DNA from: a virus
Virus record (IMG/VR): IMGVR_UViG_3300032217_000756
Coordinates: 1 to 25,880 of that record
Direction: 5' to 3' (one strand)
Length of the DNA stretch: 25,880 nt
In this document: piece by piece, positions 2,480 to 25,880 of the stretch
How the letters are laid out: each line of letters begins with the position of its first letter
How positions within the stretch are numbered: the stretch's first letter is position 1
Notes under the pieces: model-generated
Told to the model about the DNA's origin: nothing
Databases searched by the model: none
What the model saw: the letters and a program-made list of their open reading frames with translations, nothing else
Translations under genes and position numbers: made by a program

Positions 2480-2491
2480 TTAAGGAACTAT

Positions 2492-7697: not shown

Positions 7698-8392
7698 TGT
7701 TTGTCCTTGTTGTTTGTCCACCACTGTTTTGCTTCGACTACTGTATCAGCAAGATAGTATTCTAAAAAATTCCAACCCATAATCCAATCGTTGAGTATTT
7801 CTGTTTCTTTTCTAATAATATAAATTTGACAAAATACTTTTGCAGATATTGTTTGAGGAGTAGTAAGTACTTTAAAAGTTGAATTACCACTTCTTAGATG
7901 TGCAAGTTTTCCTTGTTGGAGATCCCGCAATGCCAACTCTTTTTTTCTAATTTTATCTTTATTAACAATAATAACCAAATCTAGAACTTTATCTTTCTTC
8001 ATAGGCATTCTAACATATTTTTCTGAAAAGTTAAAAGAGCTATCACAGCCCATATAACTAATATCTTGTTTTTCGCTAACAATTAAATCTATTTCAGATA
8101 TAACAACATCAATTGATGATTGCGAAAACCAAATATCAGATCGAAGTTTAATTACTATTTTTTCGTTAACTAAATCTAACGCTTTGTAAAAATCCCAAAT
8201 CTGTATTCTGGCGGCTCCGGTTTCATTTGGTGGGAAGGGGCAGTCAGCTCTATCTAGTTTAGGTTGAAGGAAATCGTATTCAACTACATCCCACCTTTCG
8301 TTTAATTTGTTTAACAAGTGCCTATGATTATTAAATCCTAATTCTTTAAATCGTGGCAAACCAATATAAACTATCGCTATCTTATGTTTCAT
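7688..8392 (-). CDS. WavE-like glycosyltransferase, tandem paralogue 1
   Basis: This 234-residue protein is the first of the tandem trio in transcription order. It has IAIVYIG at the start, CPFPPNETGA near 51, IQIWDF near 63, the IKLRSDIWFSQSSIDVV motif (S85-D86) and LRSGNSTFK. The middle is very rich in lysine. Its ATG overlaps the upstream stop as ATGA. Divergence among the three copies is large outside the motifs, so the triplication is not recent. The expected activity is transfer of a nucleotide sugar. The motif match to WavE is my reading and not a database result. Confidence 0.72.
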   Translation of the reverse strand: MKHKIAIVYIGLPRFKELGFNNHRHLLNKLNERWDVVEYDFLQPKLDRADCPFPPNETGAARIQIWDFYKALDLVNEKIVIKLRSDIWFSQSSIDVVISEIDLIVSEKQDISYMGCDSSFNFSEKYVRMPMKKDKVLDLVIIVNKDKIRKKELALRDLQQGKLAHLRSGNSTFKVLTTPQTISAKVFCQIYIIRKETEILNDWIMGWNFLEYYLADTVVEAKQWWTNNKDKQWL

Positions 8393-9414: not shown

Positions 9415-10148
9415 AATTTGTTAATTCCTTGTAAAATAAAATTTCTTTCTAAGGTATTAGGTTTACTATGCCTATATACTCTTAACAACATTAGAATTAA
9501 CAGATAGTCGTTGTTGGCTTCTGGGTATTGTTCTAATATTTGCTGTTGTATGTGTTTGGTTTTTACATCTAGCATTACATTATCTTTTCTAATAAACCAT
9601 CCTAGTTCTAGATCTTGTCTTAATTTTGCAATATCAAAAATATAGGAGTCGTATTCTGTTGTGGCACAATCAATAAGAAAAAATCCTCGATCAGCAGTAA
9701 AGATAATATTTTCCAATGTTAGGTCGCCGTGATAATTTGAACTTGGCAATATTTTAGGCAGACGCTCTAAAAGTTCTTCACGGTTAAATGGTAGTTCGTC
9801 AAAGCTAACTTCTTCTAACTTCTTAATATATGTTTCTGTGTAATCTTTATCTACAGAATTTTTAGAAAGTTTACCTAATACAGACAATATAAAATCTAAT
9901 AATTTTTCATAGTTGTTGGTTTTAAGATATGTTTTAATATCTAGTCCGTGTAGATATTCCATATCAATCATTTTCTTCGATACTGTGAATAATTGAGGAA
10001 GTGGGTAATCTGCAGACAATGCCTGCATACGCTCAATGTTCCTAGATATATTTCCAATCTTTCTTACAAAGAGCTTGTTGTGCTTCTGCATCAATAATAT
10101 TTGATTCCCAGAAAACCCATAAAGTTCTTTAACTACCTTAGCGGCCAT
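9405..10148 (-). CDS. APH/choline-kinase-like phosphotransferase
   Basis: This 247-residue protein has the catalytic core of the aminoglycoside phosphotransferase/choline kinase superfamily: YHGDLTLENIIF with catalytic D142 and metal ligand N147 (Brenner-type HGD....N), and FFLIDCATTEYD with the metal Asp D160, followed by DIAKLRQDL as in this fold. The N-terminal lobe is short (FVRKIGN carries a likely ATP-binding Lys). It probably phosphorylates a sugar or small alcohol that the next gene's nucleotidyltransferase domain then activates; the ten-base overlap supports this. Antibiotic resistance is unlikely in this setting. It sits one base after the stop of the preceding methyltransferase gene. 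Confidence 0.8.
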   Translation of the reverse strand: MAAKVVKELYGFSGNQILLMQKHNKLFVRKIGNISRNIERMQALSADYPLPQLFTVSKKMIDMEYLHGLDIKTYLKTNNYEKLLDFILSVLGKLSKNSVDKDYTETYIKKLEEVSFDELPFNREELLERLPKILPSSNYHGDLTLENIIFTADRGFFLIDCATTEYDSYIFDIAKLRQDLELGWFIRKDNVMLDVKTKHIQQQILEQYPEANNDYLLILMLLRVYRHSKPNTLERNFILQGINKLWK

Positions 10149-10149
10149 A

Positions 10150-10704
10150 TCACTTGTAAGCTACGACCCTACTATCAATTGGAGTTTTTTGATGTAGGTT
10201 TGACTGAATTTCTGCTCGAGAAAATCCTGCCTCTAAGAATAATTTTCTCATACTTTCTGCACTGTATCCCCACTTATGTAACATAGTAGGGTCTGGATAT
10301 CTAGCACTGTCTCCATAGATTCCGGAAATTGTTCTTTTAACTAATCTTTTATCGTGTGTCCAAAAACAATCTGGATTGTTTACAACTTCTTGGCACATCT
10401 TTAGTAGATCTGGCCATTCCATAGCAACACACCCGCCGGGTTTACAAATTCTATAAAATTCTTTAAACATAGGAGGAATATATTGCCTACTAAGGTGTTC
10501 AATGACATGAACGGTTAAAATTTCGTCGACGCAGTTATCAGGAAGTGGAAATGGTTGTGTAATGTCGTGCAATGTTACATTAGGGTCGTGTGCCATATAA
10601 TCCCCGTCGATGTTTATATACCCATCTAAATGAACACTGCCACAGCCTAGATGTAATTTTACAAAAGATTTTTGATTTATTTTTTCTTGCACTTTGTTAA
10701 GCAT
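10150..10704 (-). CDS. class I SAM-dependent methyltransferase (KLHLGCG type)
   Basis: This is a 184-residue protein. The SAM-binding loop is KLHLGCGS (16-23), followed by GYINID with the acidic residue after strand 2, and then VDEILTVHVIEHLS, the methyltransferase-11 type motif with the EHL turn. PGGCVAMEWPDL follows as strand 5. Such short KLHLGCG proteins are frequent in glycan clusters and marine phages. The ATG overlaps the previous gene by 8 bases. The likely role is O-methylation of a sugar, but some family members have no demonstrated activity. Confidence 0.82.
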   Translation of the reverse strand: MLNKVQEKINQKSFVKLHLGCGSVHLDGYINIDGDYMAHDPNVTLHDITQPFPLPDNCVDEILTVHVIEHLSRQYIPPMFKEFYRICKPGGCVAMEWPDLLKMCQEVVNNPDCFWTHDKRLVKRTISGIYGDSARYPDPTMLHKWGYSAESMRKLFLEAGFSRAEIQSNLHQKTPIDSRVVAYK

Positions 10705-11275
10705 TTTTTGTTCCTATCATGTTAATCATTGAATATGGAAGATATTTTTTTATAGAACCGTCTTCTTGTGTTTCAATAAATGCCCTTCGTCGATCAAAAT
10801 CGCTGTCTCTTTCTACAAATTCAATACTATTAGGTAATTCTGTAGAATAAGCATAGTGCGACCATTGAAACTTAGGGAATAAAAACTCGATGGCCTTAAA
10901 ACTATATCTATAATAATCGTCGGGATATTTATGATATTTCCAAACCCACGGACTATTGATATATAATTTTCCACTTGGTCTAACTAGATCAGATAAAACG
11001 TTAGCCATTAACCATGGTGTTGGTGTGTGTTCAAGAACACTACAACATATTACAAGATCAAAATAATTTTTAGGTAGTGGGTGATCGTCTTTAGTTAAAT
11101 CGCATATTACATCAACCCCGTCGCCTTCTTCAAGGTCAACACCTACATATTCAACAGTTATATAGTTTTTTCTAAATTCAGAAACGCTGACAATTTTACT
11201 GCCTATCTCTAATACAGGACCGATTGCGTTTGGATATACTTTTTTTAGATAAACAATATCATTTGGGCTACCCAT
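10697..11275 (-). CDS. SAM-dependent methyltransferase-like protein
   Basis: This is a 192-residue protein. The N-terminal loop is VLEIGSK (21-27), a less glycine-rich variant of the SAM-binding motif, followed by YVGVDLEEGDGVDVICDL and FDLVICCSVLEHTPTPW (about 73-89), which fit the methyltransferase-11 fold. PSGKLYINSPW is the strand-5 region, and the aromatic WVWKYHKYPDDYYRYS stretch may bind the acceptor. It is close in design to its downstream neighbour but not a simple duplicate. The weaker glycine motif leaves open whether it is active. The ATG is one base before the end of the previous gene's spacing, so coupling is likely. Confidence 0.78.
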   Translation of the reverse strand: MGSPNDIVYLKKVYPNAIGPVLEIGSKIVSVSEFRKNYITVEYVGVDLEEGDGVDVICDLTKDDHPLPKNYFDLVICCSVLEHTPTPWLMANVLSDLVRPSGKLYINSPWVWKYHKYPDDYYRYSFKAIEFLFPKFQWSHYAYSTELPNSIEFVERDSDFDRRRAFIETQEDGSIKKYLPYSMINMIGTKNA

Positions 11276-11276
11276 A

Positions 11277-12239
11277 TTATATACCTAACTGACGTTTGAC
11301 TTCATCTATAAATTTCTTTGATAGTACACGAGCAGAATAGTTTTGTTCTGTATACTCTTGTCCTAGACGAATACGTTCTTGCACTTCTGCTGGATTTTTC
11401 AAAGCCCATTTTATACCTTCAATATAATCATCTTGCCAAGTATAGGGCGCAAATTCTTCATAGCTGGCCAATGCTGTGGTAATTACAAATTTTCCAGAAA
11501 TTAAACTGTCAATTAATCTGTTTGCGCTTTTAGTATCAGTTCGAGGATTATCAGTCATTACAGGCATTAACACAATATCACATTCTGTTAACAATTTACC
11601 CTGATGTTCCCAGGTCCATTCTTGCATATCTAATTTACTAAAATTAATTCCAGATATTTGACCCTTGTTTTGTCGTTGAGTCATTTTACTAAGCACTCTA
11701 TCAGTTTTTGCACTGACCATAGTGAACTTATAATCCACAATTTCTTTTTCTAATCTCTGCCAACATTCAACTATAGGAAAGAATTTAAAACTACTTTGAC
11801 TTCCAAACCATAGCAATTTTAATTCTTTACTAGGCGTAAATTTAGGTGTTAATTTTGGCCTTTCGTAGGGATCAGGCATTACTATGCTGTCTTTTCCGGT
11901 ATGATGTTTGGTACTGATTCCCATATTAACGCTATTAACTGAAACTAAATCTGCCAGTTGACAACAAGGTTCGTATTCTTCTTTTTCTTCGAATTTATTA
12001 TCACATAGATCATAGATAGTTTTAGCACCTAGGTCTTTAGCCTTTTGAATACTGTGAGGTTGACTACGTTTTAAAAATACAACAATGGTATTTGCGTCAA
12101 CCTCACTCCAGTCTGTTAAAACTTTTGAATCATATCCTTGATCGACCAGTGCCTGACAGGTTACATCGCCTCGAAGCCTATGACTGGCTCTTTTACTTTT
12201 ATAAGCATCACTGAAAAATCGTATTTTTATTTTGTCCAT
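11277..12239 (-). CDS. GT4-like (GT-B) glycosyltransferase
   Basis: This is a 320-residue protein. It starts KIRFFSDAYKSKRASHRLRG, with a conserved-looking R-rich acceptor loop. The second half shows the GT-B donor domain: LKLLWFGSQSS (about 139-149), a LLTECDIVLMPVM strand and NRLIDSLISGKFVITT (about 245-260) in place of the usual E.x7.E/GLPVVAT region of GT4 enzymes, followed by NYSARVLSKKFID. Length is near the short end of the family (usually 350-400). It probably transfers a hexose or similar unit. The start lies inside the upstream FkbM gene end (13-base overlap). The family assignment is by pattern. Confidence 0.75.
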   Translation of the reverse strand: MDKIKIRFFSDAYKSKRASHRLRGDVTCQALVDQGYDSKVLTDWSEVDANTIVVFLKRSQPHSIQKAKDLGAKTIYDLCDNKFEEKEEYEPCCQLADLVSVNSVNMGISTKHHTGKDSIVMPDPYERPKLTPKFTPSKELKLLWFGSQSSFKFFPIVECWQRLEKEIVDYKFTMVSAKTDRVLSKMTQRQNKGQISGINFSKLDMQEWTWEHQGKLLTECDIVLMPVMTDNPRTDTKSANRLIDSLISGKFVITTALASYEEFAPYTWQDDYIEGIKWALKNPAEVQERIRLGQEYTEQNYSARVLSKKFIDEVKRQLGI

Positions 12240-12877
12240 TTCATTACCCAGTCTTTGTTAAATTGTTCTACTACTTTATAACCCCAGCCCTCTAAAATTT
12301 TAATTGCAGGGGTTTCATTCATATCGTTTTGATATTCGTGTTTTTGTTGTTCAATAACCAACACTGGTTTATTTTGTTCAATTGTTTTCATAGCGCCAAC
12401 AAGAATTTCGCCTTCAAAACCTTCAACATCTATTTTGATCATGTCTACGTTTGTTAGATTAAAACTATCTAAAGTTTTTAAAGGGATAGTTCCTTTGCCT
12501 ATTGATGATTGGTCAATGTGAGTGTGTCCTGTATTTCCTTGAACAATATTCATTTCAATAAAACTATCTTCGCGACCTAATGCCATTTGATACATGGTAT
12601 AATTAGATTCTAAAACATTCTTTTTAAAACATTCAATGAATTCACCTACAGGTTCAAAAGCAATAACATGATCAAATGATTTGACAAGATCACAAGACCA
12701 TAGTCCTACATTTGCTCCAATATCAATACAAACTCTTTTTTGATCGCAAGCAGCAACAGCAGAATCTCTAGCTCTCCATTGGTATCTAACAACCCCATCT
12801 TTTCTTAGACTTTTTTCCAACATTCTAGGAAAATGATCGTCATATTCCGGAAACCATAATCCGTGTACTTGCTTCAT
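12227..12877 (-). CDS. FkbM-family methyltransferase
   Basis: This 216-residue protein has both FkbM hallmarks: the SAM loop CIDIGANVGLW (50-60) and the MIKIDVEGFEGEIL segment (147-160), with FEPVGE (74-79) between them. FkbM enzymes O-methylate polyketides and many glycans and are common in phage and bacterial sugar clusters. The ATG overlaps the preceding stop as ATGA, and the gene runs into the GT gene by 13 bases. It most probably adds a methyl ether to a sugar of the glycan. The N-terminal 45 residues have no recognisable motif. Confidence 0.88.
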   Translation of the reverse strand: MKQVHGLWFPEYDDHFPRMLEKSLRKDGVVRYQWRARDSAVAACDQKRVCIDIGANVGLWSCDLVKSFDHVIAFEPVGEFIECFKKNVLESNYTMYQMALGREDSFIEMNIVQGNTGHTHIDQSSIGKGTIPLKTLDSFNLTNVDMIKIDVEGFEGEILVGAMKTIEQNKPVLVIEQQKHEYQNDMNETPAIKILEGWGYKVVEQFNKDWVMKWTK

Positions 12878-13728
12878 TTAAACGTACTCCAATATTCTTC
12901 TGCTCTATTTACTTTTAAATCAGTACGCAGACTGTGGCCGGTATCTTTGCGATCACCTTTGAGGTGATCAAGATATGCGCCCCACTCGCAATTGATCAGC
13001 GGGTGACCTTCTCCAACTGAATTTCCTTTAAACGGACGAAGGTCACTAAGTGACTCGCTCCAATTTAATTCGTTAAGATTGCAATTATTTCTTACTGCGT
13101 CAAACACAAAGCTATCGTGCCACTCGCCTAGTGTAAAGATTCCATTTTCAGCATCGTCGTAATACTCCTGGAATTTTTTAAGAAATAACTGTGTTGCGTG
13201 GCTGCGGAGATTCATAGCATAAAGGCCACACTCGCTGTATTTTCCTTTTCTACCTAGATAGCATAGGTCTTTTTCTAAAGGACAAAGCTCTAATACTCTT
13301 TCATAGGTAATAGGGCTATGACATACAGTGTCAGCGTCCATCCATAATAAGATGTCTGCATCGATATTTTTTGCACAATGAAATACAGCATAAACTTTAT
13401 TGGCAAATCTTATGGCATTCCACTTGAAATTCTTCTTAGAATCTTTTCTATTGCCTCTTATCGGATCACCGCTAACATCACCGTTGGCTTTAGGGACATC
13501 TTTCCATTTTTGTTTAAATTGAGTTAGATCATCAACACTATCTAAGTCTGTTAATGTCACGTGTTTGTGATTACTGATTGCAGGATTGCATTTTTCTGGA
13601 TAGATATGTAGAGTAATTTCCTCTGGCCAATTTTTGCAAAAAGTATCTATCATTCGTTGTGCATATTTTTTCAAACCTTCTTCGTGGAAGGTGGTAACAA
13701 CGGCAATTTTCAATTTAATTTTCTCCAT
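12874..13728 (-). CDS. GT-A-type glycosyltransferase with DxD motif
   Basis: This 284-residue protein starts at the ATG at 13728; a TTG three codons further upstream could extend it. It shows IAVVTTFHEEG, RMIDTFCKNWPEE, KVYAVFHCAKN, the metal motif LWMDADTVC (D131-A-D133) and an SECGLYAMNL stretch. It is a paralogue of the protein at 18176-18913, which shares AVTTF...G...Y..RMI.T...FWPE and KVYA. The two are on opposite strands in different cassettes. It probably transfers a nucleotide-sugar residue. Base composition is slightly less AT-rich than its operon neighbours, which may reflect separate acquisition. Confidence 0.78.
   Translation of the reverse strand: MEKIKLKIAVVTTFHEEGLKKYAQRMIDTFCKNWPEEITLHIYPEKCNPAISNHKHVTLTDLDSVDDLTQFKQKWKDVPKANGDVSGDPIRGNRKDSKKNFKWNAIRFANKVYAVFHCAKNIDADILLWMDADTVCHSPITYERVLELCPLEKDLCYLGRKGKYSECGLYAMNLRSHATQLFLKKFQEYYDDAENGIFTLGEWHDSFVFDAVRNNCNLNELNWSESLSDLRPFKGNSVGEGHPLINCEWGAYLDHLKGDRKDTGHSLRTDLKVNRAEEYWSTFK
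12951..12969. repeat. 8-bp perfect hairpin inside a glycosyltransferase gene
   Basis: GATCACCT at 12951-12958 and AGGTGATC at 12962-12969 are exact reverse complements with a 3-base loop (TTG). It lies near the 3' end of the GT gene on the minus strand, with no T-run after it in the direction of transcription, so it is not an obvious terminator. It may be an RNA stability or processing element, or chance. Confidence 0.4.
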
Positions 13729-14108
13729 AAATGACAATCATTAAATATTTGTGTAACAGCATATCCATAATTTTTTAAAAATTTATATTCTGTCTTACCA
13801 AATAACTCGATCCCTTGAACAAGTATGATTGGTTGGTATCTGCTTAATAATTGTGGAAGTTTTGAAACGTGAAGATCCTGATCTCGATCCATAACAATCA
13901 CATCTATATCGGGCAATAACTCTAAATGATCAAAATTTTCTTTATAAATTAAATTTCTTTTTCTAACAACCTGTTCAGTTGTAGAAATTATAAAAATACT
14001 GGAAAAACTATTACACAATTCTTCTAGTCGGTCAAATCCAGTTCCCAGAACCAAAATATTTCTAGGATTTTTTTTAGATTTGGTAATTTTTTTAATAAAT
14101 TTAGACAT
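13710..14108 (-). CDS. small Rossmann-like protein, first gene of the leftward operon
   Basis: This is a 132-residue protein. A strand-loop NILVLGTGFDRLEEL (17-31) looks like a dinucleotide or SAM-binding start, and DVIVMDRDQDLH and QPIILVQGIELFG (about 70-103) look like later strands of the same fold. The chain is about 60-80 residues shorter than a complete class I methyltransferase, so it may be a reduced or degenerate one. It starts with a basic, Lys-rich segment. It begins 23 bases after an AATAAATA late-type box and overlaps the GT gene by 19 bases. I cannot assign a function. Confidence 0.6.
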   Translation of the reverse strand: MSKFIKKITKSKKNPRNILVLGTGFDRLEELCNSFSSIFIISTTEQVVRKRNLIYKENFDHLELLPDIDVIVMDRDQDLHVSKLPQLLSRYQPIILVQGIELFGKTEYKFLKNYGYAVTQIFNDCHLWRKLN

Positions 14109-15033: not shown

Positions 15034-16227
15034 ATGTCAAGTTCTCAATACGCCGAAGATATCTTTTTAGAATTTTATAACCTCATGACTCAACACGGAT
15101 TTGCCTTGGCCGGTTCGGACACAGGCGCCGTGTATAATTTTCAAACTTTGATATCGTCAGGTAATCAATTGACTCAAAGTCAGGCCAATTTTATTGTTAA
15201 AATTCTTAAAAAATATAAAACTATATCTCAAAAGTACAATCTTGACTACAGCGATCAAATTGAAAATCCTATATGGAAAAGAGAGTTTCGAATTTTAGAT
15301 CTAACAAAAAAAATATTTGTAGAAAGAAATCTAGAAGGTGAAACTCTGATACTTTTAAAATTTCCATTCGGCTTAAAAGAAGTTTTTGATAAAGAATTTT
15401 ACAGTGACAAAGATCATTTCAAACATTCTACCTGGGACCATGAGCGTAAATTGCGACAGATAAAGTTCACCGACATCAATGTTGTAGCTCTTTACGAATT
15501 TGTTAAAAAACACCAGTTTGAAATAGATGATTCTTTCTTAGAAACTGTGGAATCTGTAGAAAATATATGGGCTACACAAGAAGACGTTGTACCCTACAGT
15601 ATAGTTTTTGAAGATAAAATAGTGTTAATAAACAGCAACGAATATGCTGATTCTTATTTTGAAGAACACTCAACTGGAAACATTGACCACGATATGCTGT
15701 TGGCTAAATCAATGAGCTTTCCATTGAAATTAGTGGGGAAACCCAAAAAAATTGTTGAGAAAATTTCCTCTACTGAAAATAATATTTTTTGGATTGATAC
15801 CAACGAAAAGTTTTTCGACCTCTATAAACAGATAGATGGAACAATTTGTATTCTTTTAGATCGTGCATCCTACAAGGACAAATGGCTTGAGCAATTTGTC
15901 ATTGATTCTGAAAAATACGGAATATCCAAGTCGGATATTAGGGTATGTTTTAGAGACAATAAAGATTCTGATAGAGGATTAAATCAATGGGTCAAAGACA
16001 ACGATCTTGGTGGTCCTATTGACGGAGGAAAGATTTTTATATTTGAACATAAACCTGCTAAGTGGTTGTTTAAAAATAAAATAGATGTTAAACTTATTGT
16101 TACAAATAACTTGTATATTAGTTCTAATTCCTTTGTAAGCGATTGGATGATTAGTCATCCTTGTATTGTTTATCTAGGAGAAATAAAACCAACTTTAACT
16201 AAGGTAAAATCTTTTGCCAGCTTGTAA
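15034..16227 (+). CDS. unassigned 397-residue protein upstream of uvsW
   Basis: This 397-residue soluble protein has no signal peptide or transmembrane segment. Recognisable stretches are HSTWDHERKLRQIKF (130-144), a possible Rossmann-like strand-helix GTICILLDRASYKDKWLEQF (about 270-290), FRDNKDSDRGLNQWVKDN (about 309-326) and IFIFEHKPAKWLFKNK. No Walker, HNH or nuclease motif is obvious. It has its own strong sigma70-type promoter and overlaps uvsW by 14 bases in another frame, so it is very probably co-expressed with that helicase and likely to act in early DNA metabolism. My memory is that marine T4-like phages carry similar hypothetical proteins. I do not know a function. Confidence 0.8.
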   Translation: MSSSQYAEDIFLEFYNLMTQHGFALAGSDTGAVYNFQTLISSGNQLTQSQANFIVKILKKYKTISQKYNLDYSDQIENPIWKREFRILDLTKKIFVERNLEGETLILLKFPFGLKEVFDKEFYSDKDHFKHSTWDHERKLRQIKFTDINVVALYEFVKKHQFEIDDSFLETVESVENIWATQEDVVPYSIVFEDKIVLINSNEYADSYFEEHSTGNIDHDMLLAKSMSFPLKLVGKPKKIVEKISSTENNIFWIDTNEKFFDLYKQIDGTICILLDRASYKDKWLEQFVIDSEKYGISKSDIRVCFRDNKDSDRGLNQWVKDNDLGGPIDGGKIFIFEHKPAKWLFKNKIDVKLIVTNNLYISSNSFVSDWMISHPCIVYLGEIKPTLTKVKSFASL

Positions 16228-17668
16228 ACTGATAATCAAAGACGAAGTAAACATTAAGTTTGAAGGACTTGCTGTTGAAACACGACGAAAAATTGTTAAT
16301 AAATTAAAGTTTGATTTACCATATGCTCGTCATATGCCAGCTTATAAACTTGGTCGGTGGGATGGGACAAAAACTTATTTTGGTATTGGCGGTACTGGTT
16401 ATCTTGCACACTTAGATGTTATTCTTCCTATTGTAGAAGATGCGGGATACGAAATTGATATCGATGATCTTCGCCAGCATAGTAAAATAGAATTTACACC
16501 TATCACTGAAAATTATTGGGCAGACAAAGGAAAAACTTGGCCTAAGGGGCACCCGGAGGCAGGTACTCCTATTGTACTGCGTGACTATCAATATGATGTT
16601 GTCAACAAGTTTTTAGAAAATCCACAGGCCTTGCAAGAAGTTGCTACAGGCGCAGGCAAAACAATTACCACAGCCACACTCAGTCATTTATGCGAGCCCT
16701 ATGGCCGGACAATGGTTGTTGTTCCGAATAAATCGTTGGTTGTTCAGACTGAAGAAGATTATAAAAATCTAGGACTTGATGTCGGTGTTTACTTTGGCGA
16801 TCGTAAAGAATTAAATCGAACACACACCATCTGTACCTGGCAAAGTTTAAATGTCTTAGACAAAAAAAGCTATGACGAAGATACGCTAAGTCTGGCTGAA
16901 TTTACCGCAGGAGTGGCTGCAATTATTGTAGACGAAGTCCACCAAGCCAAGGCAGAAGTCCTGACAAAATTGTTAACACAGAACTTCAACAACTGTGCTA
17001 TTCGTTGGGGACTTACTGGAACGGTACCTAAAGAAGCGTTTGAATTTCAAGGTATTCTTGCCAGCATTGGTCCTGTTATTAATCAGGTTTCCGCACACGA
17101 TCTACAAGAAAAAGGTGTACTGGCTAATCTACAGATCAATATTTTACAAACTTCTGATGTACAGGTATTTAGAAGCTTTCAAGAAGAATATAGTTTTTTG
17201 GTCACCGATCCTACAAGATTAAATTGGATAGCCGGCAAAATTAAAGAACTGTCATTAAGCGGAAATACCTTGGTGTTGATCAATAGAATTGACACAGGAA
17301 ATAAATTGATTGATTTGATTCCGGAGGCTGTGTTTGTCAGCGGAGGTATGAAACTAGACGAAAGAAAAGAAGAATATGACGAAATTAAAACTAGTGATGG
17401 CAAGATTATTGTGGCGACTTATGGTGTGGCCGCTGTGGGTATTAATATCCCCCGTATTTTTAATTTGGTTCTTTTGGAGCCCGGAAAGAGCTTTGTCCGC
17501 GTTATACAATCAATTGGGCGAGGTATTAGAAAAGCAGAAGACAAGGACTTCGTACAGATCTGGGACATGACAAGTTCCTGCAAGTATGCCAAACGACATC
17601 TCACTGAAAGAAAAAAATACTACAAGGAGGCGAAATACCCCTTTACAATTACAAAGGTCAACTTATGA
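16214..17668 (+). CDS. uvsW: UvsW-like DNA/RNA helicase
   Basis: This is a 484-residue superfamily 2 helicase. The N-terminal domain (CKLIIKDEVNIKFEG, then YKLGRWDGTKTYFG at about 44-57) is typical of UvsW, the T4 helicase that unwinds branched DNA and R-loops and helps shut off origin replication. Walker A is ATGAGKT (144-150), the DEAH-type box is DEVH (240-243), a TGT motif follows (LTGTVP), and the C-terminal lobe ends with motif VI QSIGRGIRK. The start is probably the TTG at 16214, because no ATG in frame lies before the conserved N-terminus; AAGG 10 bases upstream is a fair ribosome site. It overlaps the preceding gene by 14 bases and the next by ATGA. Confidence 0.92.
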   Translation: MPACKLIIKDEVNIKFEGLAVETRRKIVNKLKFDLPYARHMPAYKLGRWDGTKTYFGIGGTGYLAHLDVILPIVEDAGYEIDIDDLRQHSKIEFTPITENYWADKGKTWPKGHPEAGTPIVLRDYQYDVVNKFLENPQALQEVATGAGKTITTATLSHLCEPYGRTMVVVPNKSLVVQTEEDYKNLGLDVGVYFGDRKELNRTHTICTWQSLNVLDKKSYDEDTLSLAEFTAGVAAIIVDEVHQAKAEVLTKLLTQNFNNCAIRWGLTGTVPKEAFEFQGILASIGPVINQVSAHDLQEKGVLANLQINILQTSDVQVFRSFQEEYSFLVTDPTRLNWIAGKIKELSLSGNTLVLINRIDTGNKLIDLIPEAVFVSGGMKLDERKEEYDEIKTSDGKIIVATYGVAAVGINIPRIFNLVLLEPGKSFVRVIQSIGRGIRKAEDKDFVQIWDMTSSCKYAKRHLTERKKYYKEAKYPFTITKVNL

Positions 17669-18171
17669 AGATACTAACACTCAACAATAGATCATTTGAT
17701 CTAAATGAATTGCCAGAAGAGGTAGACGAAGACACTAGATTTTCAGTATTAGATAATTCTAATCCTAACGAACCTGATTTTTTCTTTATGCCTTTGATAT
17801 TTTTAGAATCATTTAATAGTCCTGCTATTCTACTAAACATCGGAGGGTATGAAGTTCAAATGCCATTAGATTGGTGCATGGTGGTAGGAGATAAAGACTG
17901 CGGAATGGATCCAGAGGTATTACCGTTGACATCTATCAATGAACGAGGTTTTGATGCATTTATTTTTAATCCTATTAGAGGATTTAAATGCGAATATATG
18001 CCTATAGAAATAGTAAACATATACCAAGATGTTCGTTGGTATTTTCCTAAAATGAAAAACGGACAGCTTCTTAGTGTTCCTTTGCACGATGGTGACAACC
18101 CTCCGTGTGCATATTTTGTTAAAGAAGTAAGCAGACAAAGCGAAGTCATACAACTACATAAAATACTATAA
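17665..18171 (+). CDS. conserved protein of unknown function downstream of uvsW
   Basis: This is a 168-residue protein whose ATG overlaps the uvsW stop (ATGA), so it is translated together with the helicase. It is acidic at the start (LPEEVDEDTR) and has a hydrophobic middle (LIFLESFNSPAILLNIGGY) that is too short and polar-flanked to be a clear membrane helix. MPLDWCMVVGDKDCG and LTSINERGFDAFIFNPI (about 65-110) look like the conserved core. Cys residues are scattered and no metal-binding pattern is clear. I recall similar proteins next to uvsW in marine T4-like phages, but no activity is known to me. Confidence 0.75.
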   Translation: MKILTLNNRSFDLNELPEEVDEDTRFSVLDNSNPNEPDFFFMPLIFLESFNSPAILLNIGGYEVQMPLDWCMVVGDKDCGMDPEVLPLTSINERGFDAFIFNPIRGFKCEYMPIEIVNIYQDVRWYFPKMKNGQLLSVPLHDGDNPPCAYFVKEVSRQSEVIQLHKIL

Positions 18172-18175: not shown

Positions 18176-18913
18176 ATGACCACCGCGGTAACGACATTTA
18201 GTAAAGACGGCTATGAGTTATATGGTCATAGGATGATAGAAACCTGGATTCAGTTTTGGCCAGAAACTTTTAAGTTAATTGTCTATGTCGAAGGATTTAA
18301 TCTTGTAGAAAAAGATTCTAGAATTACAGAAATTGATTTAGAATCAGCCTGCCCTGATCTTGTGACTTTTAAAAAAAACAGCGGCCTACTATTTGAAGAA
18401 AATAAAGAAAATAAAAGACAACGACATCGAATACAAAAAACAATAAAATGGTGTTATAAAGTCTATGCAATGAAACACGCTTTAAATTGTTTAGACGACT
18501 ATGTAATTTTTTTAGATGGCGATACGTATACAAAAGCTCACGTTCCTCCACATTTTCCAAAAGTTTTAGTTGAAGACAATCTGTTTGCTGTACATTTTGA
18601 AAATTTACAAAACGGATTACATTTTGAAACTGGTTTGGTTGTTTTTAATATAAGCCATAGCCAGACAGTTTGGTTAAGAGAAAATTTAACATCTGCCTAC
18701 GACAGCCTAGATATATACAATATGAAAAAAACTTGGGACGGATATTGGTTTGCACATCTATATCAAGTCTATGAATTACCAGTAAAAGATTTAACTGGTG
18801 ATGATCGGGGTGTTTTTTGTCACCCCGCCGTTAATCCTATTTTAGCACATAACGTAGGAGTTAAAAAATACACAAATGCAGGTTATAACGAATATACAGG
18901 AAGAAAATTATGA
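18176..18913 (+). CDS. GT-A-type glycosyltransferase with DxD motif, second cassette
   Basis: This is a 245-residue paralogue of the protein at 12874-13728: TAVTTFSKDGYELYGHRMI (2-20), FWPETFKL, KVYAMKHALN and the metal motif IFLDGDTYTK (D114-G-D116), then FETGLVVFN. A TATAAT lies 4 bases before the ATG but has no matching -35 box. It is probably translated from the uvsW transcript, as the start is 5 bases after the previous stop. It is followed by a cupin and an epimerase, which together suggest addition of a modified sugar. A GC-rich hairpin (18806-18827) lies within the gene. Confidence 0.78.
   Translation: MTTAVTTFSKDGYELYGHRMIETWIQFWPETFKLIVYVEGFNLVEKDSRITEIDLESACPDLVTFKKNSGLLFEENKENKRQRHRIQKTIKWCYKVYAMKHALNCLDDYVIFLDGDTYTKAHVPPHFPKVLVEDNLFAVHFENLQNGLHFETGLVVFNISHSQTVWLRENLTSAYDSLDIYNMKKTWDGYWFAHLYQVYELPVKDLTGDDRGVFCHPAVNPILAHNVGVKKYTNAGYNEYTGRKL
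18806..18827. repeat. GC-rich 7-bp hairpin inside a glycosyltransferase gene
   Basis: CGGGGTG at 18806-18812 and CACCCCG at 18821-18827 are exact reverse complements around an 8-base T-rich loop. Six of the seven pairs are G-C, which is remarkable in a genome this AT-rich. The stem encodes ordinary-looking residues of the GT. No U-run follows it, so it is not a standard terminator. Confidence 0.5.
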
Positions 18914-19254
18914 AAGCTGGAAAAGTGTGGGGTCAAACAGAGTTATTAGAAGCCAACGGAGTATTGGAATTTCATCGAATTGAAGCCAAGGCCGGAGGTG
19001 TGTGTTCAAAACACAAACATAAATTTAAATGGAATGGATTTTTTGTTGAGCAAGGTGAGATGATTATTCGAGTTTGGAAAAATAATTATGATCTAGTCGA
19101 CGAAACGTTGCTTAAAGCTGGTCAATATACAAAAGTTGCTCCCGGCGAGTATCACCAATTCGAAGCAGTCACTGATTGTGTTGCTTTTGAATTATACTGG
19201 GCAGAGTTTGATCACGACGACATTGCAAGAGAAACTGTTGGCTTTGCTAAATGA
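18910..19254 (+). CDS. small single-domain cupin
   Basis: This 114-residue protein is about the size of one cupin barrel. Metal-ligand candidates are H35 and H37 (CSKHKHKFKW), E47 or E50 (FFVEQGEMI) and H82 (PGEYHQFEA), matching the two cupin motifs. The pattern resembles sugar-related cupins of the dTDP-sugar or mannose-6-phosphate isomerase type. The ATG overlaps the GT stop (ATGA) and its end overlaps the epimerase start (ATGA), so the three are translated as a unit. A role in sugar isomerisation or epimerisation is plausible. Regulatory sugar-binding is an alternative. Confidence 0.75.
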   Translation: MKAGKVWGQTELLEANGVLEFHRIEAKAGGVCSKHKHKFKWNGFFVEQGEMIIRVWKNNYDLVDETLLKAGQYTKVAPGEYHQFEAVTDCVAFELYWAEFDHDDIARETVGFAK

Positions 19255-20087
19255 AAGTATTAATCACAGGTAACTCTGGGTATATCGGTTCGCACTTAAC
19301 TAAATTGTTAAACAAGCAAACTGATCTAGAATTATATGGTCTAGATCGTAACAAGTCAGTGTTACCTGTCAAAGAACATTCTCTAAATAACATTGCAATG
19401 CCGGGATATTTTCTATGGCAAAGAGATTTTGAATTTGATTGTGTAATACATTTAGCGGCAGAGGTGGGAGTAGGACGAAGTGTATTAAATCCTACGTTAT
19501 ACTATCAAACAAACACCCTAGGGACACTGCGTATACTACAAGAGATAAAATTTAAAAGATTTATCCATGCGAGTACAGGCTCCGCCGGACCGATGAACAA
19601 TCCCTACGGTATTAGTAAACGTGCCGCAGAAGAAATAGTAGATCAATACTGTAAAGAAAAAAATATTCCGTTCACAACATTTAGATTTTTCAATGTGATA
19701 GGCACAGACGGCATAGGACCAACAAATAAAGACGGCCTTTTGTGGAATTTAATAAACGCAGAAAAAACTGGTGTGTTTAATTTGTTTGGTGACGATTATA
19801 ATACTGAAGACGGATCTGCGGTAAGAGATTATACTCACGTGAACGAAATTTGTAATGCAGTGAAGTTAGCCATTAATGACTCTACTAATCAAATAGAAAA
19901 TCTTGGTCACGGAGTAGGCACAACAGTTAAGCAGATGATTTCTTTGTACAAAAAAGTTAATAATTGCGACTTTGATGTTAGGGTGTGTCCAAGAAGAGCT
20001 GGAGACCTTGAGCGAAGTGTTCTTGACAATCCATCATCATTTATGCAAAAATTGTATACTATGGAAGATCTATTATGGGTTCATTAA
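19251..20087 (+). CDS. NAD-dependent sugar epimerase/dehydratase (GalE-like)
   Basis: This 278-residue member of the extended short-chain dehydrogenase family has the NAD-binding loop ITGNSGYIGSH (5-15), the HLAAEVGVGRSV segment, the catalytic YGISK (Y119, K123), FRFFNVIGT, and SAVRDYTHVNEI (about 190-201), which resembles the VRDYIHV signature of UDP-glucose 4-epimerases. It is about 50-60 residues shorter than GalE, with a compressed region between HASTGSAG and the catalytic Tyr. It likely epimerises an NDP-sugar used by the neighbouring GT. It overlaps the cupin by 4 bases and the next gene by 13 bases. Confidence 0.85.
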   Translation: MKVLITGNSGYIGSHLTKLLNKQTDLELYGLDRNKSVLPVKEHSLNNIAMPGYFLWQRDFEFDCVIHLAAEVGVGRSVLNPTLYYQTNTLGTLRILQEIKFKRFIHASTGSAGPMNNPYGISKRAAEEIVDQYCKEKNIPFTTFRFFNVIGTDGIGPTNKDGLLWNLINAEKTGVFNLFGDDYNTEDGSAVRDYTHVNEICNAVKLAINDSTNQIENLGHGVGTTVKQMISLYKKVNNCDFDVRVCPRRAGDLERSVLDNPSSFMQKLYTMEDLLWVH

Positions 20088-20356
20088 AGCCAGGGGCAAC
20101 CTACATTTACGAACGAAACGGCGAGGAGATATATGCTCGAGAAGTTGGCAAAAAAGATCGTAAACTAATTGGATACCAATATGAAAACACAGTAGATCCG
20201 AGAACACATGACGGACGGCCGTTGTATGAGCACATTAAAGAAGATAGACTTTGGGGCGAGATTCGAGTAGAAGCTCGGACAAACAAAGTATTGCAAGAAG
20301 CATTAGAACGTGTTAAACTAATATATCATCTAAGTAAAAACAATGGCAAAAAATAA
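20075..20356 (+). CDS. small conserved protein of unknown function
   Basis: This 93-residue protein begins SLKPGATYIYERNGEEIYAR and has DGRPLYEHI in the middle and an RVEARTNKVLQEALERVK helix near the end. It is charged, with no membrane segment. It resembles small proteins I remember from many marine T4-like phages, where they sit near replication or structural genes and have no known function. It overlaps the epimerase by 13 bases and gp62 by 14 bases, so it belongs to the same transcript and ties the sugar cassette to the replication genes. Confidence 0.75.
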   Translation: MGSLKPGATYIYERNGEEIYAREVGKKDRKLIGYQYENTVDPRTHDGRPLYEHIKEDRLWGEIRVEARTNKVLQEALERVKLIYHLSKNNGKK

Positions 20357-20822
20357 ACACGTAGATCTTTTTAAAGATATAATTCCTGCAGTTGATCTAG
20401 GAGTCAAAGAACTTTGGGATGCAACTACCGACGAAGGAAGAAAAGAAATTAAAGGTGATTTCTGGAATTTAAATCGATATATTAGTAATGTCAAAACCAA
20501 CAACAAAGAAGTTCAAGAACATTTTGTTGAAATGACCAACGAAATCTATAACAAAAATTGGGCTGTGATTCAAAATCATCCCAAGCTAGTTTGGATGTTG
20601 TTGTGCCTATGTAGCTACGGTGATGGAAAAACATACTTCCACGAATATCTTCCACTGAAAAAAACTAAAAACAAAAAAGAAGAATTGATTGCACAATTTT
20701 TTCCTAATATGAAACAAAGCGATGTTGAAACTCTTGCCTCAATCACCACAGACAAAGAAATTAAAAAATACTGCGAAGATCTTGGATGGGATAAAAAACA
20801 AATTGCAGACCTTAAACTATAA
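20343..20822 (+). CDS. 62: DNA polymerase clamp loader small subunit (gp62-like)
   Basis: This is a 159-residue protein (T4 gp62 has 187). The order LFKDIIPAVD, DFWNLNRYISN (about 36-46), EMTNEIYNKNW, NHPKLVWMLLCLC and a C-terminal LASITTDKEIKKYCEDLGWD matches the pattern I know for the phage clamp loader subunit A family. In T4, gp62 works with four gp44 ATPase subunits to load the gp45 sliding clamp onto primer ends. Neither gp44 nor gp45 is in the window. No ATPase motif is present, as expected for this subunit. The start overlaps the preceding gene by 14 bases. The family call rests on remembered patterns and should be confirmed by profile search. Confidence 0.72.
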   Translation: MAKNKHVDLFKDIIPAVDLGVKELWDATTDEGRKEIKGDFWNLNRYISNVKTNNKEVQEHFVEMTNEIYNKNWAVIQNHPKLVWMLLCLCSYGDGKTYFHEYLPLKKTKNKKEELIAQFFPNMKQSDVETLASITTDKEIKKYCEDLGWDKKQIADLKL

Positions 20823-21489
20823 GTGTGAATTCTGCGAAAAACTTTTTGCCAAAGAAAAAACATTGGTAGTGCATATCTGTGAACAAAAAAGAAGACATCT
20901 ATCTAAGAATGAAAAACACGTTCAAATGGGATTGTTAACCTTTCAACGATTTTACGAGCTTACACAAAAAGCAAAACAACCAAAGACATTTGATGAGTTT
21001 TCATCTAGCAGTTTTTATACTGCCTTTGTTAAATTTGGTAGCTTTATGGTTAATACTGCTCCTATATATCCAGAACGATTTATTGATTTTGTTATTAAAA
21101 GCGGAATCAAATTAGACCACTGGTGTCGCGATGAATTGTATGATACTTACATTAGCGAATTAATAAAAATAGAACCAGCAGATGGCGCCATTCAGCGATC
21201 AATTAAAACAATGATGGATTGGTCAGAATCTAATAATGCTCCGTGGGAACATTATTTTGCCTATGTTAATCTCAATAGAGCCACCCACGATATTAAAGAA
21301 GGTGTAATAAGCCCTTGGCTTGTATTAAATACAAAGTCCGGCAAAGAGATGTTAACAAAAATGAATGATGAACAACTGGCTATAGTTGAGCCGTATATCG
21401 ATCCTCAATTTTGGAAACGCAGATTTAAATCTCTTCCGGCAGATATGGAGTTAGTTAAAGATGTCGTCAAGGAGGCGAAGATACTGTAA
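20803..21489 (+). CDS. zinc-finger-containing conserved protein of unknown function
   Basis: This is a 228-residue protein if it starts at TTG 20803, just before YKCEFCEKLFAKEKTL. The longer frame from an ATG at 20722 would overlap gp62 by 101 bases and adds unlikely sequence. Residues about 7-29 hold a Cys2-His-Cys or Cys2-His2-type finger: CEFC, then HIC and RRH. The rest has conserved-looking segments FVKFGSFMVNTAPIYPERFIDF, LDHWCRDELYDTYI, ISPWLVLNTKSG and EPYIDPQFWKRRF. The finger suggests DNA or RNA binding, in keeping with replication genes on both sides. The overall fold is unknown. Its stop overlaps the next start as TAATG. Confidence 0.75.
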   Translation: MQTLNYKCEFCEKLFAKEKTLVVHICEQKRRHLSKNEKHVQMGLLTFQRFYELTQKAKQPKTFDEFSSSSFYTAFVKFGSFMVNTAPIYPERFIDFVIKSGIKLDHWCRDELYDTYISELIKIEPADGAIQRSIKTMMDWSESNNAPWEHYFAYVNLNRATHDIKEGVISPWLVLNTKSGKEMLTKMNDEQLAIVEPYIDPQFWKRRFKSLPADMELVKDVVKEAKIL

Positions 21490-21713: not shown

Positions 21714-21901
21714 TGAGAAATTTACTAGACGGTACAGATGCTGAAGAGCTAGACGAACCAGTTATACTGACAATAAAAACCAAATGCCCAGGCAAATGGT
21801 TATTGGCGGATAAAGAAACTGGTGAAGTCTATGTTCCCTACACAACACCTGGATCGTTGCAATGGAAGAAAATTGATCAGTGGGACGGAAAAGATGCCTG
21901 A
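21713..21901 (+). CDS. small conserved protein of unknown function
   Basis: This is a 62-residue protein starting at the ATG that overlaps the previous stop (TGATG). It has an acidic N-terminus (LLDGTDAEELDEPV), then a beta-rich core ILTIKTKCPGKWLLADKETG and EVYVPYTT, ending in QWKKIDQW. It may be a tiny all-beta fold. It overlaps the DnaE-like gene by 8 bases. No motif allows a functional call. Coupled translation with the polymerase-like protein hints at a shared role. Confidence 0.65.
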   Translation: MRNLLDGTDAEELDEPVILTIKTKCPGKWLLADKETGEVYVPYTTPGSLQWKKIDQWDGKDA

Positions 21902-22472
21902 TATTGATATAGACTTTTTAGATAGAGAACAGGCTCTAAAACTTTTTAAGTATGTAGGAGCCAGTCGTATTGACTCCGACAAACTAGTAAAACACAACAC
22001 TGGAATATATCTACACGAAGTTCCAGTGAATGCTCTAACAGGACTCTGTGCTGTTCCCTATGATGATGCTGAAGAAAAAGGTTATTTTAAAATAGACTTT
22101 TTAAATGTCAGTATCTACAAAGGAATCAAAGACGAAGCTCATCTTATACAATTAATGGAGACAGAACCGCTATGGGATTTACTACTACAAGACGATTTCA
22201 CCAGCTTGCTCTTTCACGTCAACGGGCATGGTTCCATCTTAAGAGAAATGAAGCCAATGTCGATAGAACAATTGGCAGCGGTACTGGCAGCAATTCGCCC
22301 AGCGAAGAGACATCTGATAGGCAAAGACTGGACGACGGTAATGAAAGAAATTTGGATCAAACCCGAGAACGGTGATTATTATTTTAAGAAAAGTCATGCC
22401 ACTGCTTATGCTGTAGCTGTGGTAGTTCAGATGAATTTGATCTGCGAACAGATAAGCTACGGTTATAGTTAA
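21894..22472 (+). CDS. miniature DnaE-like (DNA polymerase III alpha) core protein
   Basis: This 192-residue protein starts at the ATG at 21894; a longer frame from 21822 lacks support. Four landmarks of bacterial C-family polymerases occur in the right order: PDIDIDFLDR (2-10; the first catalytic Asp pair D3/D5), KHNTGIYLHEVPVNAL (33-48; compare the H.GG region), GYFKIDFLNVSIY (63-75; D68 as the third catalytic Asp, compare KFDFLGL), an IRPAKR segment at 134-139 where DnaE has RPGP, and FKKSHATAYAVAV (164-176; compare NKSHAAAYAL). DnaE has over 1,100 residues, so the PHP, thumb, most fingers and C-terminal domains are gone. T4-like phages replicate with family B gp43, so this may be an accessory polymerase or a repurposed binding protein. 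It overlaps the gene on the other strand by 4 bases. Confidence 0.7.
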   Translation: MPDIDIDFLDREQALKLFKYVGASRIDSDKLVKHNTGIYLHEVPVNALTGLCAVPYDDAEEKGYFKIDFLNVSIYKGIKDEAHLIQLMETEPLWDLLLQDDFTSLLFHVNGHGSILREMKPMSIEQLAAVLAAIRPAKRHLIGKDWTTVMKEIWIKPENGDYYFKKSHATAYAVAVVVQMNLICEQISYGYS

Positions 22473-22840
22473 ACTGGTTTTCTTACCAACGTAATAGATT
22501 TACGTTTAACACGTTTAACAATAATATCGTTTAAACTGGTTACTGGCCCAAGCAATACTTTTGTATCTTTTGTAGAGAAATTTCTAATAGCATACTTGTA
22601 ATTTAATATTTCTCTAGCCAGAAATATACTAATAGGAATTTGGCGGTTTGACTCCCACCACCATACTTCACCTAGTTCTATAAATCGACTTTTTTCAAGC
22701 TCTGTACGAATTAATGAATAGTCGTACATACTAGTGATCTGATGATCTTGGTTAATTATAATACCAACATATTCTTGATCTACGTGATTTAGCACGGATA
22801 TAAATGGAAAGTTTTGTTGTAGATTTTCTGTTATTCTCAT
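22469..22840 (-). CDS. conserved protein of unknown function on the opposite strand
   Basis: This 123-residue protein is the only leftward gene in the replication region. It shows FPFISVLNHVDQEYVGIIIN (12-31), a VWWWESNRQIPISIF stretch (about 59-73) and TKDTKVLLGPVTSLN (about 90-104), ending in a basic tail (IVKRVKRKSITLVRK). No catalytic motif is clear. The basic tail may bind nucleic acid. Its ATG is 30 bases from the start of the divergent gene at 22871. A perfect late box TATAAATA (22889-22896, minus strand) precedes it, so it is probably late, unlike its neighbours. It resembles hypothetical proteins I recall from marine T4-like phages. Confidence 0.72.
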   Translation of the reverse strand: MRITENLQQNFPFISVLNHVDQEYVGIIINQDHQITSMYDYSLIRTELEKSRFIELGEVWWWESNRQIPISIFLAREILNYKYAIRNFSTKDTKVLLGPVTSLNDIIVKRVKRKSITLVRKPV

Positions 22841-23686: not shown

Positions 23687-24700
23687 ATGACTCTCGTCTT
23701 AGACAAATTTCGATCTCTGTTGCCTAAAACTAAAACCAGCCCAAGCGGTTGGATTAGTTTCAATGCTCCCTGTTGCCATAATAGAGGACACGCTCGAGAT
23801 ACAAGAAAACGAGCAGGAGTTATGTTCAGCGAAGGTGTTGTCTATAACTGTTTTAATTGCAAATACACAGCTAGTTGGCAACCTGGTAGAACACTAACTG
23901 AAAAGTTTAAATCTCTATGTAGATGGTTAGGAGCCAGTGACGATCAAATAAAAGAAATGATGTTTGAAGCACTGAAAACTGAAAGCCTTGACTACGAACC
24001 AGATCACTTTGTTGAAAAAGTTAAGTTTACAGAAAAAGAATTGCCAGAAGGTGCGTTACCTCTAGTTGAATGGCTTGATGCTAAATTAGATGAAGAGCAA
24101 GAACAACAGTTGATAGCGGTAGTTGAATATGTTGTTAAGAGAGGATACGATCCTCTAAATGGATATTTCTATTGGAGTCCCATGCCAGGATTTGCTGATA
24201 GAGTAATCATACCATTCGAATATGAGGGTAAGATAGTAGGTAACACTGCACGTAAGATCAAAGAAGGCAGACCTAAATATCTGTCTGATCAACATCCTTT
24301 CTTTGTGTTTAATATAGATGCACAAGACGAATTAAACAAATATGTATTTGTCTGCGAAGGTCCGTTTGATGCTTTAGCCGTAGGAGGAGTTGCGCTACTT
24401 ACCAACGAGCTATCGCAACAACAGGCTCACATTATCAACCAATTAGGCAAAGAAGTTATTGTTATCCCAGATCAAGACACCGCTGGATTGATGCTGATAA
24501 AACAGGCCATTGACTATGACTGGGCAGTGGCATTTCCTAACTGGGGTGATGATGTTAAAGATTGCGCAGATGCCGTTCAGCAGTACGGAAAATTATTTGT
24601 TATTGTCGATGCCATTAATACTGCACAACACGGTGAAATTAAGATCAGTGTAGCAAAGAACAATCTTGAAACACGCCTTGCAATACAACAAGAAAGATAA
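23687..24700 (+). CDS. 61: DNA primase (gp61-like)
   Basis: This 337-residue protein matches T4 gp61 in length (342). A zinc-binding module lies at the N-terminus (CCHNRGH at 29-35 and CFNC at 55-58), used to read the template start site. The TOPRIM catalytic region shows CEGPFDALA (223-231) with the conserved Glu and PDQDTAG (261-267) with the conserved Asp pair. It synthesises RNA primers for lagging-strand replication together with helicase gp41, whose gene follows. Expression is probably from the sigma70-type promoter just upstream and leaderless, since no Shine-Dalgarno precedes the ATG. Confidence 0.92.
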   Translation: MTLVLDKFRSLLPKTKTSPSGWISFNAPCCHNRGHARDTRKRAGVMFSEGVVYNCFNCKYTASWQPGRTLTEKFKSLCRWLGASDDQIKEMMFEALKTESLDYEPDHFVEKVKFTEKELPEGALPLVEWLDAKLDEEQEQQLIAVVEYVVKRGYDPLNGYFYWSPMPGFADRVIIPFEYEGKIVGNTARKIKEGRPKYLSDQHPFFVFNIDAQDELNKYVFVCEGPFDALAVGGVALLTNELSQQQAHIINQLGKEVIVIPDQDTAGLMLIKQAIDYDWAVAFPNWGDDVKDCADAVQQYGKLFVIVDAINTAQHGEIKISVAKNNLETRLAIQQER

Positions 24701-24712: not shown

Positions 24713-25880
24713 ATGATTAAAGATTACGGATACGAAGTACAGAAACTATATCTTGAACTGATGCTGGCAGACGCTGAAGTGTTTGTACGCTGCCAGGGTA
24801 TTTTTGATCACACATTGTTTGATCGAAAACTACAAGATGCGGCAGAGTTCATGAATGAATATGCCAAGGGCTATAATGTATTGCCAGATTTTGAAATGGT
24901 CAATGCTAGTTGTAGAACAGAACTTAAAAAGCCAGAAGACATCAAAGAAGGGCATATGGACTGGTTGTTAGACGAGTTTGAAAACTTTACTCGTCATAAG
25001 GCACTAGAACGTGCTATTATCAGCAGTGCCGAATTGTTAGAAAACAAAAACTATGGCGAAGTCGAAGCACTGATTAAAGAAGCTGTTCAAATAGGTCTTG
25101 CTCGAGATATGGGCACAGATTACTTTGCTGATCCTAGAGCAAGATTGATGGGGTTGAAAGACAAAAACGGCCAGGTCAGTACAGGTTGGCCCTGTATGGA
25201 TCGTAAGTTATTTGGCGGCTTTAATCGAGGAGAACTGAATATCTTTGCTGGCGGATCTGGTGCAGGTAAGAGTTTGTTCTTGGCAAATCTAGGTGTTAAT
25301 TTTGCACTTGCAGGACTTAATGTTGTTTACCTTACATTAGAACTTAGCGAAGCACTGGTGAGTATGCGTATTGATAGTATGGTCACCGGAGTTAGTACTA
25401 GAGAGATCTTTAAGAACCTAGACGACATTGAAATGAAAGTCAAGATGATCGGCAAGAAGTCAGGTATGCTACAGGTCAAGTATATGCCCAGTGGTAAAAC
25501 TGTCAATGATATTCGTGCCTATCTAAAAGAATACGAAATCAAATGCGGCAAGAAGGTCGACGTACTGCTAGTAGATTATATGGACTTGCTGATGCCCATT
25601 GGCAAGAAGATTTCAGCAGAAAACTTGTTTGTCAAAGACAAGTATGTATCAGAAGAACTGCGTAATCTAGCAATGGAAAAGCAATGTGTGTTTGTAACTG
25701 CGGCACAGTTGAATCGCGGTGCGGTTGAAGAAGTTGAGTTCGATCACAGTCACATCAGTGGCGGTTTATCAAAGATTCAAACAGCAGATAACGTTATTGG
25801 TATCTTTACATCAAGAGCAATGCGTGAGCGTGGACGTTATCAACTACAGTTAATGAAAACACGTAGTAGCAGTGGAGTAA
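24713..25880 (+). CDS. 41: replicative DNA helicase (gp41, DnaB-type), 5' part
   Basis: This is an open frame from ATG 24713 to the end of the window, 389 codons visible and no stop, so the gene continues outside. Residues 1 to about 150 form the helical N-terminal domain. The RecA-like motor follows: Walker A AGGSGAGKS (179-187), YLTLE, and Walker B VDVLLVDYMDLL. FVTAAQLNRG and the DHSHISGGLSKIQTADNVIG segment are DnaB-family motifs, and RGRYQLQLMKTRSS is near the arginine-finger region. As a hexameric 5'-3' helicase it unwinds the fork and carries primase gp61, encoded just upstream. T4 gp41 has 475 residues, so about 80-90 are missing. The ATG lacks a ribosome site and sits at the predicted transcription start. 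Confidence 0.95.
   Translation, partial: MIKDYGYEVQKLYLELMLADAEVFVRCQGIFDHTLFDRKLQDAAEFMNEYAKGYNVLPDFEMVNASCRTELKKPEDIKEGHMDWLLDEFENFTRHKALERAIISSAELLENKNYGEVEALIKEAVQIGLARDMGTDYFADPRARLMGLKDKNGQVSTGWPCMDRKLFGGFNRGELNIFAGGSGAGKSLFLANLGVNFALAGLNVVYLTLELSEALVSMRIDSMVTGVSTREIFKNLDDIEMKVKMIGKKSGMLQVKYMPSGKTVNDIRAYLKEYEIKCGKKVDVLLVDYMDLLMPIGKKISAENLFVKDKYVSEELRNLAMEKQCVFVTAAQLNRGAVEEVEFDHSHISGGLSKIQTADNVIGIFTSRAMRERGRYQLQLMKTRSSSGV

Follow-up and report, generated by a model that had tools for sequence, protein, structure and literature searches.

Split forms of the bacterial replicative DNA polymerase are already known in phages. A split minimal DNA polymerase III (Pol III) was described from the genomes of group 2.2 jumbo phages, in which an NTP-binding N-terminal half and a metal- and template-binding C-terminal half are encoded apart, with a family B DNA polymerase (PolB) alongside, and the arrangement was proposed as a model for the ancestral Pol III (Iyer et al., 2021; PMC7824862). 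Parts of the system appear in two genome reports. The paper on phage CBB (2017) lists a truncated 172-residue Pol III alpha (PMC5259590), which corresponds to the N-terminal half, and the paper on phage Atu_ph07 (2018) notes that Pol III alpha and epsilon subunits are conserved in RaK2-like phages (PMC6102473). Our literature search, which left out most subscription papers, found no published polymerase assay of either half or of the pair. In the full-length enzyme of E. coli, DnaE, the catalytic Asp triad is formed by Asp401, Asp403 and Asp555; His760 is the steric gate that selects the deoxy over the ribo sugar and has been called invariant in all Pol III alpha proteins (PMC8485763). A homologous palm is found in the full-length phage DnaE of other phage groups (PHROG 405; group 3.2 jumbo, Bacillus and Streptomyces phages), which is a single long chain, usually with a PHP domain, whereas the protein analysed here is short and split. 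The T4 replicase gp43, a family B polymerase, belongs to an unrelated fold and family.

The window, a 25.9-kb (25,880-nucleotide) fragment from an uncultured virus, carries an environmental member of the already described split Pol III family. It encodes a C-terminal half (hereafter C-half) without an N-terminal half (N-half), and shows no difference of kind from the system of Iyer et al. The translated ORF is 192 residues long and opens with MPDIDIDF. Its ATG lies within an 8-nt overlap with the end of the upstream ORF, and such small overlaps are the usual packing in phage operons. An alternative GTG start at position 21,822 was rejected, since in most relatives the start codon is at or beside the ATG, and the added stretch runs back over the upstream ORF. 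The ORF is a real, strongly conserved relative of the C-family polymerases with the DnaE landmarks in order. A preliminary description of this DNA had listed these landmarks as PDIDIDF, KIDFLN, RPAKR and KKSHATAYA, with palm Asp residues D3, D5 and D68, and all of them occur in the translation as placed, KIDFLN at residues 66–71 and RPAKR at residues 135–139 (Table 1).

PHROG 11778, annotated as 'DNA polymerase', matches residues 3–186 at E = 5.7e-66, and PHROG 405 matches at E = 1.3e-9. A Pfam hmmscan of the protein gave no match at E ≤ 1, and NCBIfam returned nothing or mere trace matches. Neither the palm model PF07733 nor the fingers model PF17657 exceeded its cut-off on the 192 residues; a genome search gave a weak match of the C-half to PF07733 model positions 98–114, below cut-off. 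With no Pfam match the protein reads as unannotated, and routine annotation would call it hypothetical, as many deposited records of its relatives found by tblastn indeed do.

Table 1. Motifs of the C-half and genes of the surrounding replication cassette, in window coordinates. E. coli residue numbers were assigned by motif alignment.
Feature	Position	Strand	Remarks
UvsW-type helicase	16214–17668	+	Same cassette
PHROG 11279	17665–18171		168 residues; kept in the cassette of 85/93 covered relatives
PHROG 11758	20343–20822	+	159 residues; conserved upstream neighbour, near in 187/188 covered relatives
PHROG 11058	20812–21489	+	Upstream neighbour in 190/191 covered relatives; weak C2H2-like zinc-finger match; start approximate, longest ORF begins at 20722
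C-terminal half of split minimal DNA polymerase III alpha (PHROG 11778)	21894–22472	+	192 residues
PDIDIDF (residues 2–8)	21897–21917	+	D3 and D5 align with catalytic Asp401 and Asp403 of E. coli DnaE
H34-x-x-G37	21993–22004	+	Aligned with a palm strand of DnaE (hhalign)
KIDFL (residues 66–70)	22089–22103	+	K66 and D68, the third catalytic Asp (E. coli Asp555)
RPAK (residues 135–138)	22296–22307	+	Aligned with the start of the DnaE fingers (hhalign)
KKSHATAYA (residues 165–173)	22386–22412	+	O-helix of the fingers; H168 is aligned with His760, the steric gate in E. coli
PHROG 11637	22469–22840	-	123 residues; conserved convergent neighbour, near in 172/175 covered relatives
T4 gp61-type DNA primase	23687–24700	+	PHROG 47, E = 1.4e-33; near in 167/169 relatives
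T4 gp41/DnaB-type helicase	24713–25880	+	PF03796, E = 1.6e-18; cut by the contig end

Homology of the C-half to Pol III alpha is supported by profile comparison and by the predicted fold. With hhalign, 128 C-halves matched an alignment of 11 bacterial DnaE proteins (95.8%, E = 6.7e-9), pairing H34 and G37 with HAAGV, KIDFL with KMDFL, and RPAK with RPGP. The order PDxDxDF, HxxG, KxDFL, RP.. and KSHA..YA is shared with cellular DnaE, as is the predicted palm and fingers fold. A scan of bacterial genomes with the 192-residue protein alone retrieved relatives at E values of 6e-7 to 7e-5 which, where checked, were full-length DnaE. Thirteen of these relatives were long ORFs (973–1736 residues) matched in order by the HMMs of both halves; where the C-half match began at PDxDxDF, the N-half match stopped at most about a dozen residues before it. 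An AlphaFold2 model built from the 128-row alignment reached a pLDDT of 92.8 and a pTM of 0.83. When this model was compared with the PDB by Foldseek, each of the top 16 matches (best E = 5.4e-4) was a Pol III alpha or a PolC, and unrelated folds appeared only at E > 1; among viral models the leading named matches were likewise DNA polymerases III alpha. The TM-scores are modest, 0.36–0.50 of the query, since two large deletions interrupt the matched region. Sequence searches of the PDB were not significant for the single protein (E ≥ 0.15) and marginal for the C-half profile (best 3e-4), and a tRNA hydroxylase in the profile search (8fhc, E = 0.023) was discarded as a chance match. In view of these weak matches, the case for homology rests on the profile–profile comparison and the fold.

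The 192-residue chain contains no GRGS motif. In this family the nucleotide-binding motif GxGRGS is carried by the N-half, a separate protein of about 155–180 residues (PHROG 11127; PHROGs labels both halves 'DNA polymerase'). PF07733 scored above cut-off on such a separate 155–180-residue protein in 12/12 isolate genomes tested. The N-half spans PF07733 positions ∼13–98 and the C-half starts at ∼98, indicating that the palm is cut just before PDxDxDF. The motif residues G119, G121, R122, G123 and S124 are fixed in 16/16 N-halves, and R84 and E88 are also fixed. The N-half aligned with bacterial DnaE at E = 1.5e-10 in hhalign, and its AlphaFold model (pLDDT 93.7) had only Pol III alpha and PolC among its top 16 PDB matches. 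The 192-residue protein is therefore the C-terminal half of a probable two-gene enzyme and not a whole polymerase core. The preliminary description had proposed an extremely reduced C-family core; the reduction and the family assignment hold, while the core is not self-contained, its GRGS part being encoded by a separate gene.

A tblastn search of 50,697 phage records identified 63 with a C-half, at 36–54% identity among the matches listed, and at least 556 relatives were found in IMG/VR, up to 82% identical among the matches listed. The isolates include RaK2, K64-1, PBECO4/121Q, GAP32, CBB, BF, the SNUABM phages and PA5oct/MIJ3, as well as Atu_ph07, Phosso, XacN1, SCTP-2 and Vibrio phage 2.275.O; the 141-kb Alishewanella phages Slicko01 and Slickus01 are smaller. 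A family B polymerase is encoded in all 12 isolate genomes examined. The preliminary description had expected relatives without a known role in marine T4-like phages. Among the isolates, jumbo myoviruses make up nearly all of the relatives, the same tblastn search matched the C-half to no classical T4 phage, and a role had been put forward with the split minimal Pol III alpha of Iyer et al. and is implied by the PHROGs label.

The two halves occur together in most genomes. By tblastn, the N-half was found in 60/63 isolate records with a C-half, a count that takes three unnamed C-half records to be three additional N-half records. No N-half was returned for a 109-kb Klebsiella record, which is probably partial, or for either Alishewanella phage, of which Slicko01 does have one by profile. 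Among large metagenomic and deposited contigs the N-half was present in 16/19, including every contig longer than 300 kb, and a profile search found none in the window's own 25.9-kb fragment. The genes of the two halves lie about 4 kb apart in locus L332, 11 kb in Slicko01, 34 kb in RaK2 and more than 180 kb (linear coordinates) in Atu_ph07 and Phosso. In RaK2, where the N-half is ORF162 and the C-half ORF124, the N-half gene lies ∼1 kb from gp44, with gp39 and gp52 close by. When the ORFs of 359 loci were searched for a natural fusion, only bacterial full-length DnaE matched both HMMs, and no viral ORF did. Seven loci (L334–L340) considered as split intermediates proved to hold phage DnaE of full length that is interrupted after KxDxLG and so read as two ORFs. 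In L340 (2255–4096 and 5872–8229) an intein-like sequence is also inserted after RPG. Separately, contig IMGVR_UViG_3300017824_000198 (L191) carries, besides a 199-residue C-half, a second, unsplit DnaE-like ORF (10833–12206; at least 458 residues, cut by the contig end). This ORF lacks PHP, begins at the palm and has matches to PF07733 and PF17657.

Sixteen positions of the C-half are invariant in 213/213 relatives, namely D3, D5, D7, H34, P44, K66, D68, L70, Y75, W94, P121, R135, P136, K138, H168 and Y172; G37 is kept in 211/213. The invariant set includes the complete Asp triad of PDxDxDF and KxD, and the steric-gate His of KSHxxxY. A fold unlike DnaE or a variable Asp triad would have spoken against the preliminary description, and neither was seen in the sequence, profile and Foldseek comparisons. 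The change of RPGP to RPxK is not a degeneration, K138 being part of a fixed family signature. The dN/dS ratio among relatives has a median of 0.10 and a range of 0.05–0.17 (143 pairs). Together with this ratio, the invariance of the triad, K66 and H168 indicates that the active-site chemistry is under selection. Conservation of this kind is what a working catalytic site shows. That the ORF is a dnaE gene cut short, in decay or wrongly assembled, which the length far below that of DnaE and the word 'truncated' for the 172-residue N-half in the CBB genome paper (PMC5259590) might bring to mind, is refuted by at least 213 full-length relatives of near-constant length, by a dN/dS of about 0.1 and by the same order of neighbouring genes.

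Much of DnaE is nonetheless missing from the C-half, which has 192 residues against about 1,150 and contains no PHP, GRGS, thumb, mid-finger, clamp-binding or C-terminal region. The thumb interval, from PDxDxD to HxxG, is 32 residues in the C-half and about 111 in DnaE, and the mid-finger interval, from RP to KSH, is 31 residues versus 112–120. About 80 thumb and about 85 mid-finger residues have thus been lost, among them R699 and K704/K705, which are invariant in the DnaE alignment. The chain ends shortly after the O-helix, which leaves out the clamp-binding and C-terminal domains. The N-half, which ends at EFL, has lost both Arg residues of FERFLNPER.

The C-half gene belongs to a replication cassette of conserved order. 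In the window and its relatives a fixed block runs PHROG 11279, PHROG 11758, PHROG 11058, C-half and PHROG 11637, followed by a structural-type protein, the gp61 primase and the gp41 helicase. This agrees with the preliminary description, which had placed a reduced C-family palm and fingers beside T4-type replication genes. PHROG 11637 always lies directly after the C-half on the opposite strand (202 relatives). The Slicko01 counterpart of PHROG 11758 comes after gp44 and weakly matches the clamp-loader PHROG 225 (3e-4); the counterpart in locus L091 lies at 6545–6973. As a lead only, PHROG 11758 may be a gp62-like small subunit of the clamp loader. RaK2, GAP32, PBECO4 and BF have a gene annotated as a DnaQ-like exonuclease directly upstream of uvsW; in XacN1 such a gene is annotated close to the C-half.

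Sequence and model comparisons suggest that the C-half is probably the catalytic half of a two-protein minimal C-family nucleotidyltransferase of jumbo myoviruses, serving as an accessory polymerase. The C-half carries the two-metal Asp triad (D3, D5 and D68), K66, RPxK and the O-helix with H168, and the N-half carries the palm GxGRGS motif. In the proposed enzyme the halves would associate such that the GRGS loop of the N-half faces the Asp triad and binds the triphosphate of the dNTP. The pair may then act as a DNA polymerase beside the main family B replicase, extending primers or filling short gaps close to gp61 and gp41, or taking part in repair. Processivity would be borrowed from the phage clamp system and proofreading from the separate DnaQ-like exonuclease. 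It appears likely that the two parts make up an active enzyme, of whatever kind, in which the labour is divided in this way. The narrower proposal, that the halves form an active two-subunit C-family polymerase of ∼350 residues that dispenses with thumb and PHP and works alongside a family B replicase, primase and clamp, is more tentative and nearly evenly balanced. Against a two-half polymerase stand the thumb and mid-finger losses, the two Arg residues missing from the N-half, the usually wide separation of the halves (about 4 to >180 kb), and the lack of an N-half in the window fragment. An active pair would possibly be the smallest known C-family enzyme.

The same losses can be accommodated if the two halves build a DnaE palm with its metal site for a different nucleotidyl transfer, such as terminal addition, nucleotide sensing or modification. 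Fixation of the metal triad and GRGS alongside deletion of the thumb and mid-fingers, which would weaken templated synthesis, is consistent with such an activity, and the fold lies within the pol-beta superfamily of nucleotidyltransferases (PMC7824862). We consider this unlikely, as the deoxy-selecting H168 is identical in 213/213 relatives and the cassette holds a primase and a helicase. Less probable again is a non-catalytic replisome part derived from DnaE, a scaffold for DNA or clamp binding. The very small size, the loss of the thumb and most of the fingers, and the PolB in 12/12 genomes, which presumably does the main replication, would suit a scaffold; yet a scaffold could do without three Asp residues, K66 and a steric-gate His that are all fixed in 213/213, and without a partner that retains GxGRGS. 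It is highly improbable that the halves are directed at the host replicase, imitating or poisoning it through contacts with host Pol III partners, and not at phage replication. They do resemble host DnaE, but the 192 residues hold neither a clamp-binding nor an OB nor a tau-binding region, the family stays the same in phages whose hosts differ greatly, and the C-half sits within a phage replication cassette.

With the family already in print, the discovery value of the window is modest. New here are the precise position of the cut, the extent of the deletions, the finding that the active-site and steric-gate residues do not vary, the pairing counts, the structural support and the gene context. 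Should the two-protein enzyme prove active, it would mark out the minimal C-family polymerase and would place C-family and B-family enzymes together in one replisome. The prediction is now sharp, consisting of two proteins of about 190 and 170 residues with named active-site residues.

Elsewhere in the window, positions 912–14108 hold a long block of glycan genes in this phage contig. It includes a cytidylyltransferase fused to a mannose-6-phosphate-isomerase-type cupin (912–1679), a family 8 glycosyltransferase (2492–4150) and an FkbM methyltransferase on the minus strand (12227–12877). An epimerase and a cupin are encoded at 18910–20087.
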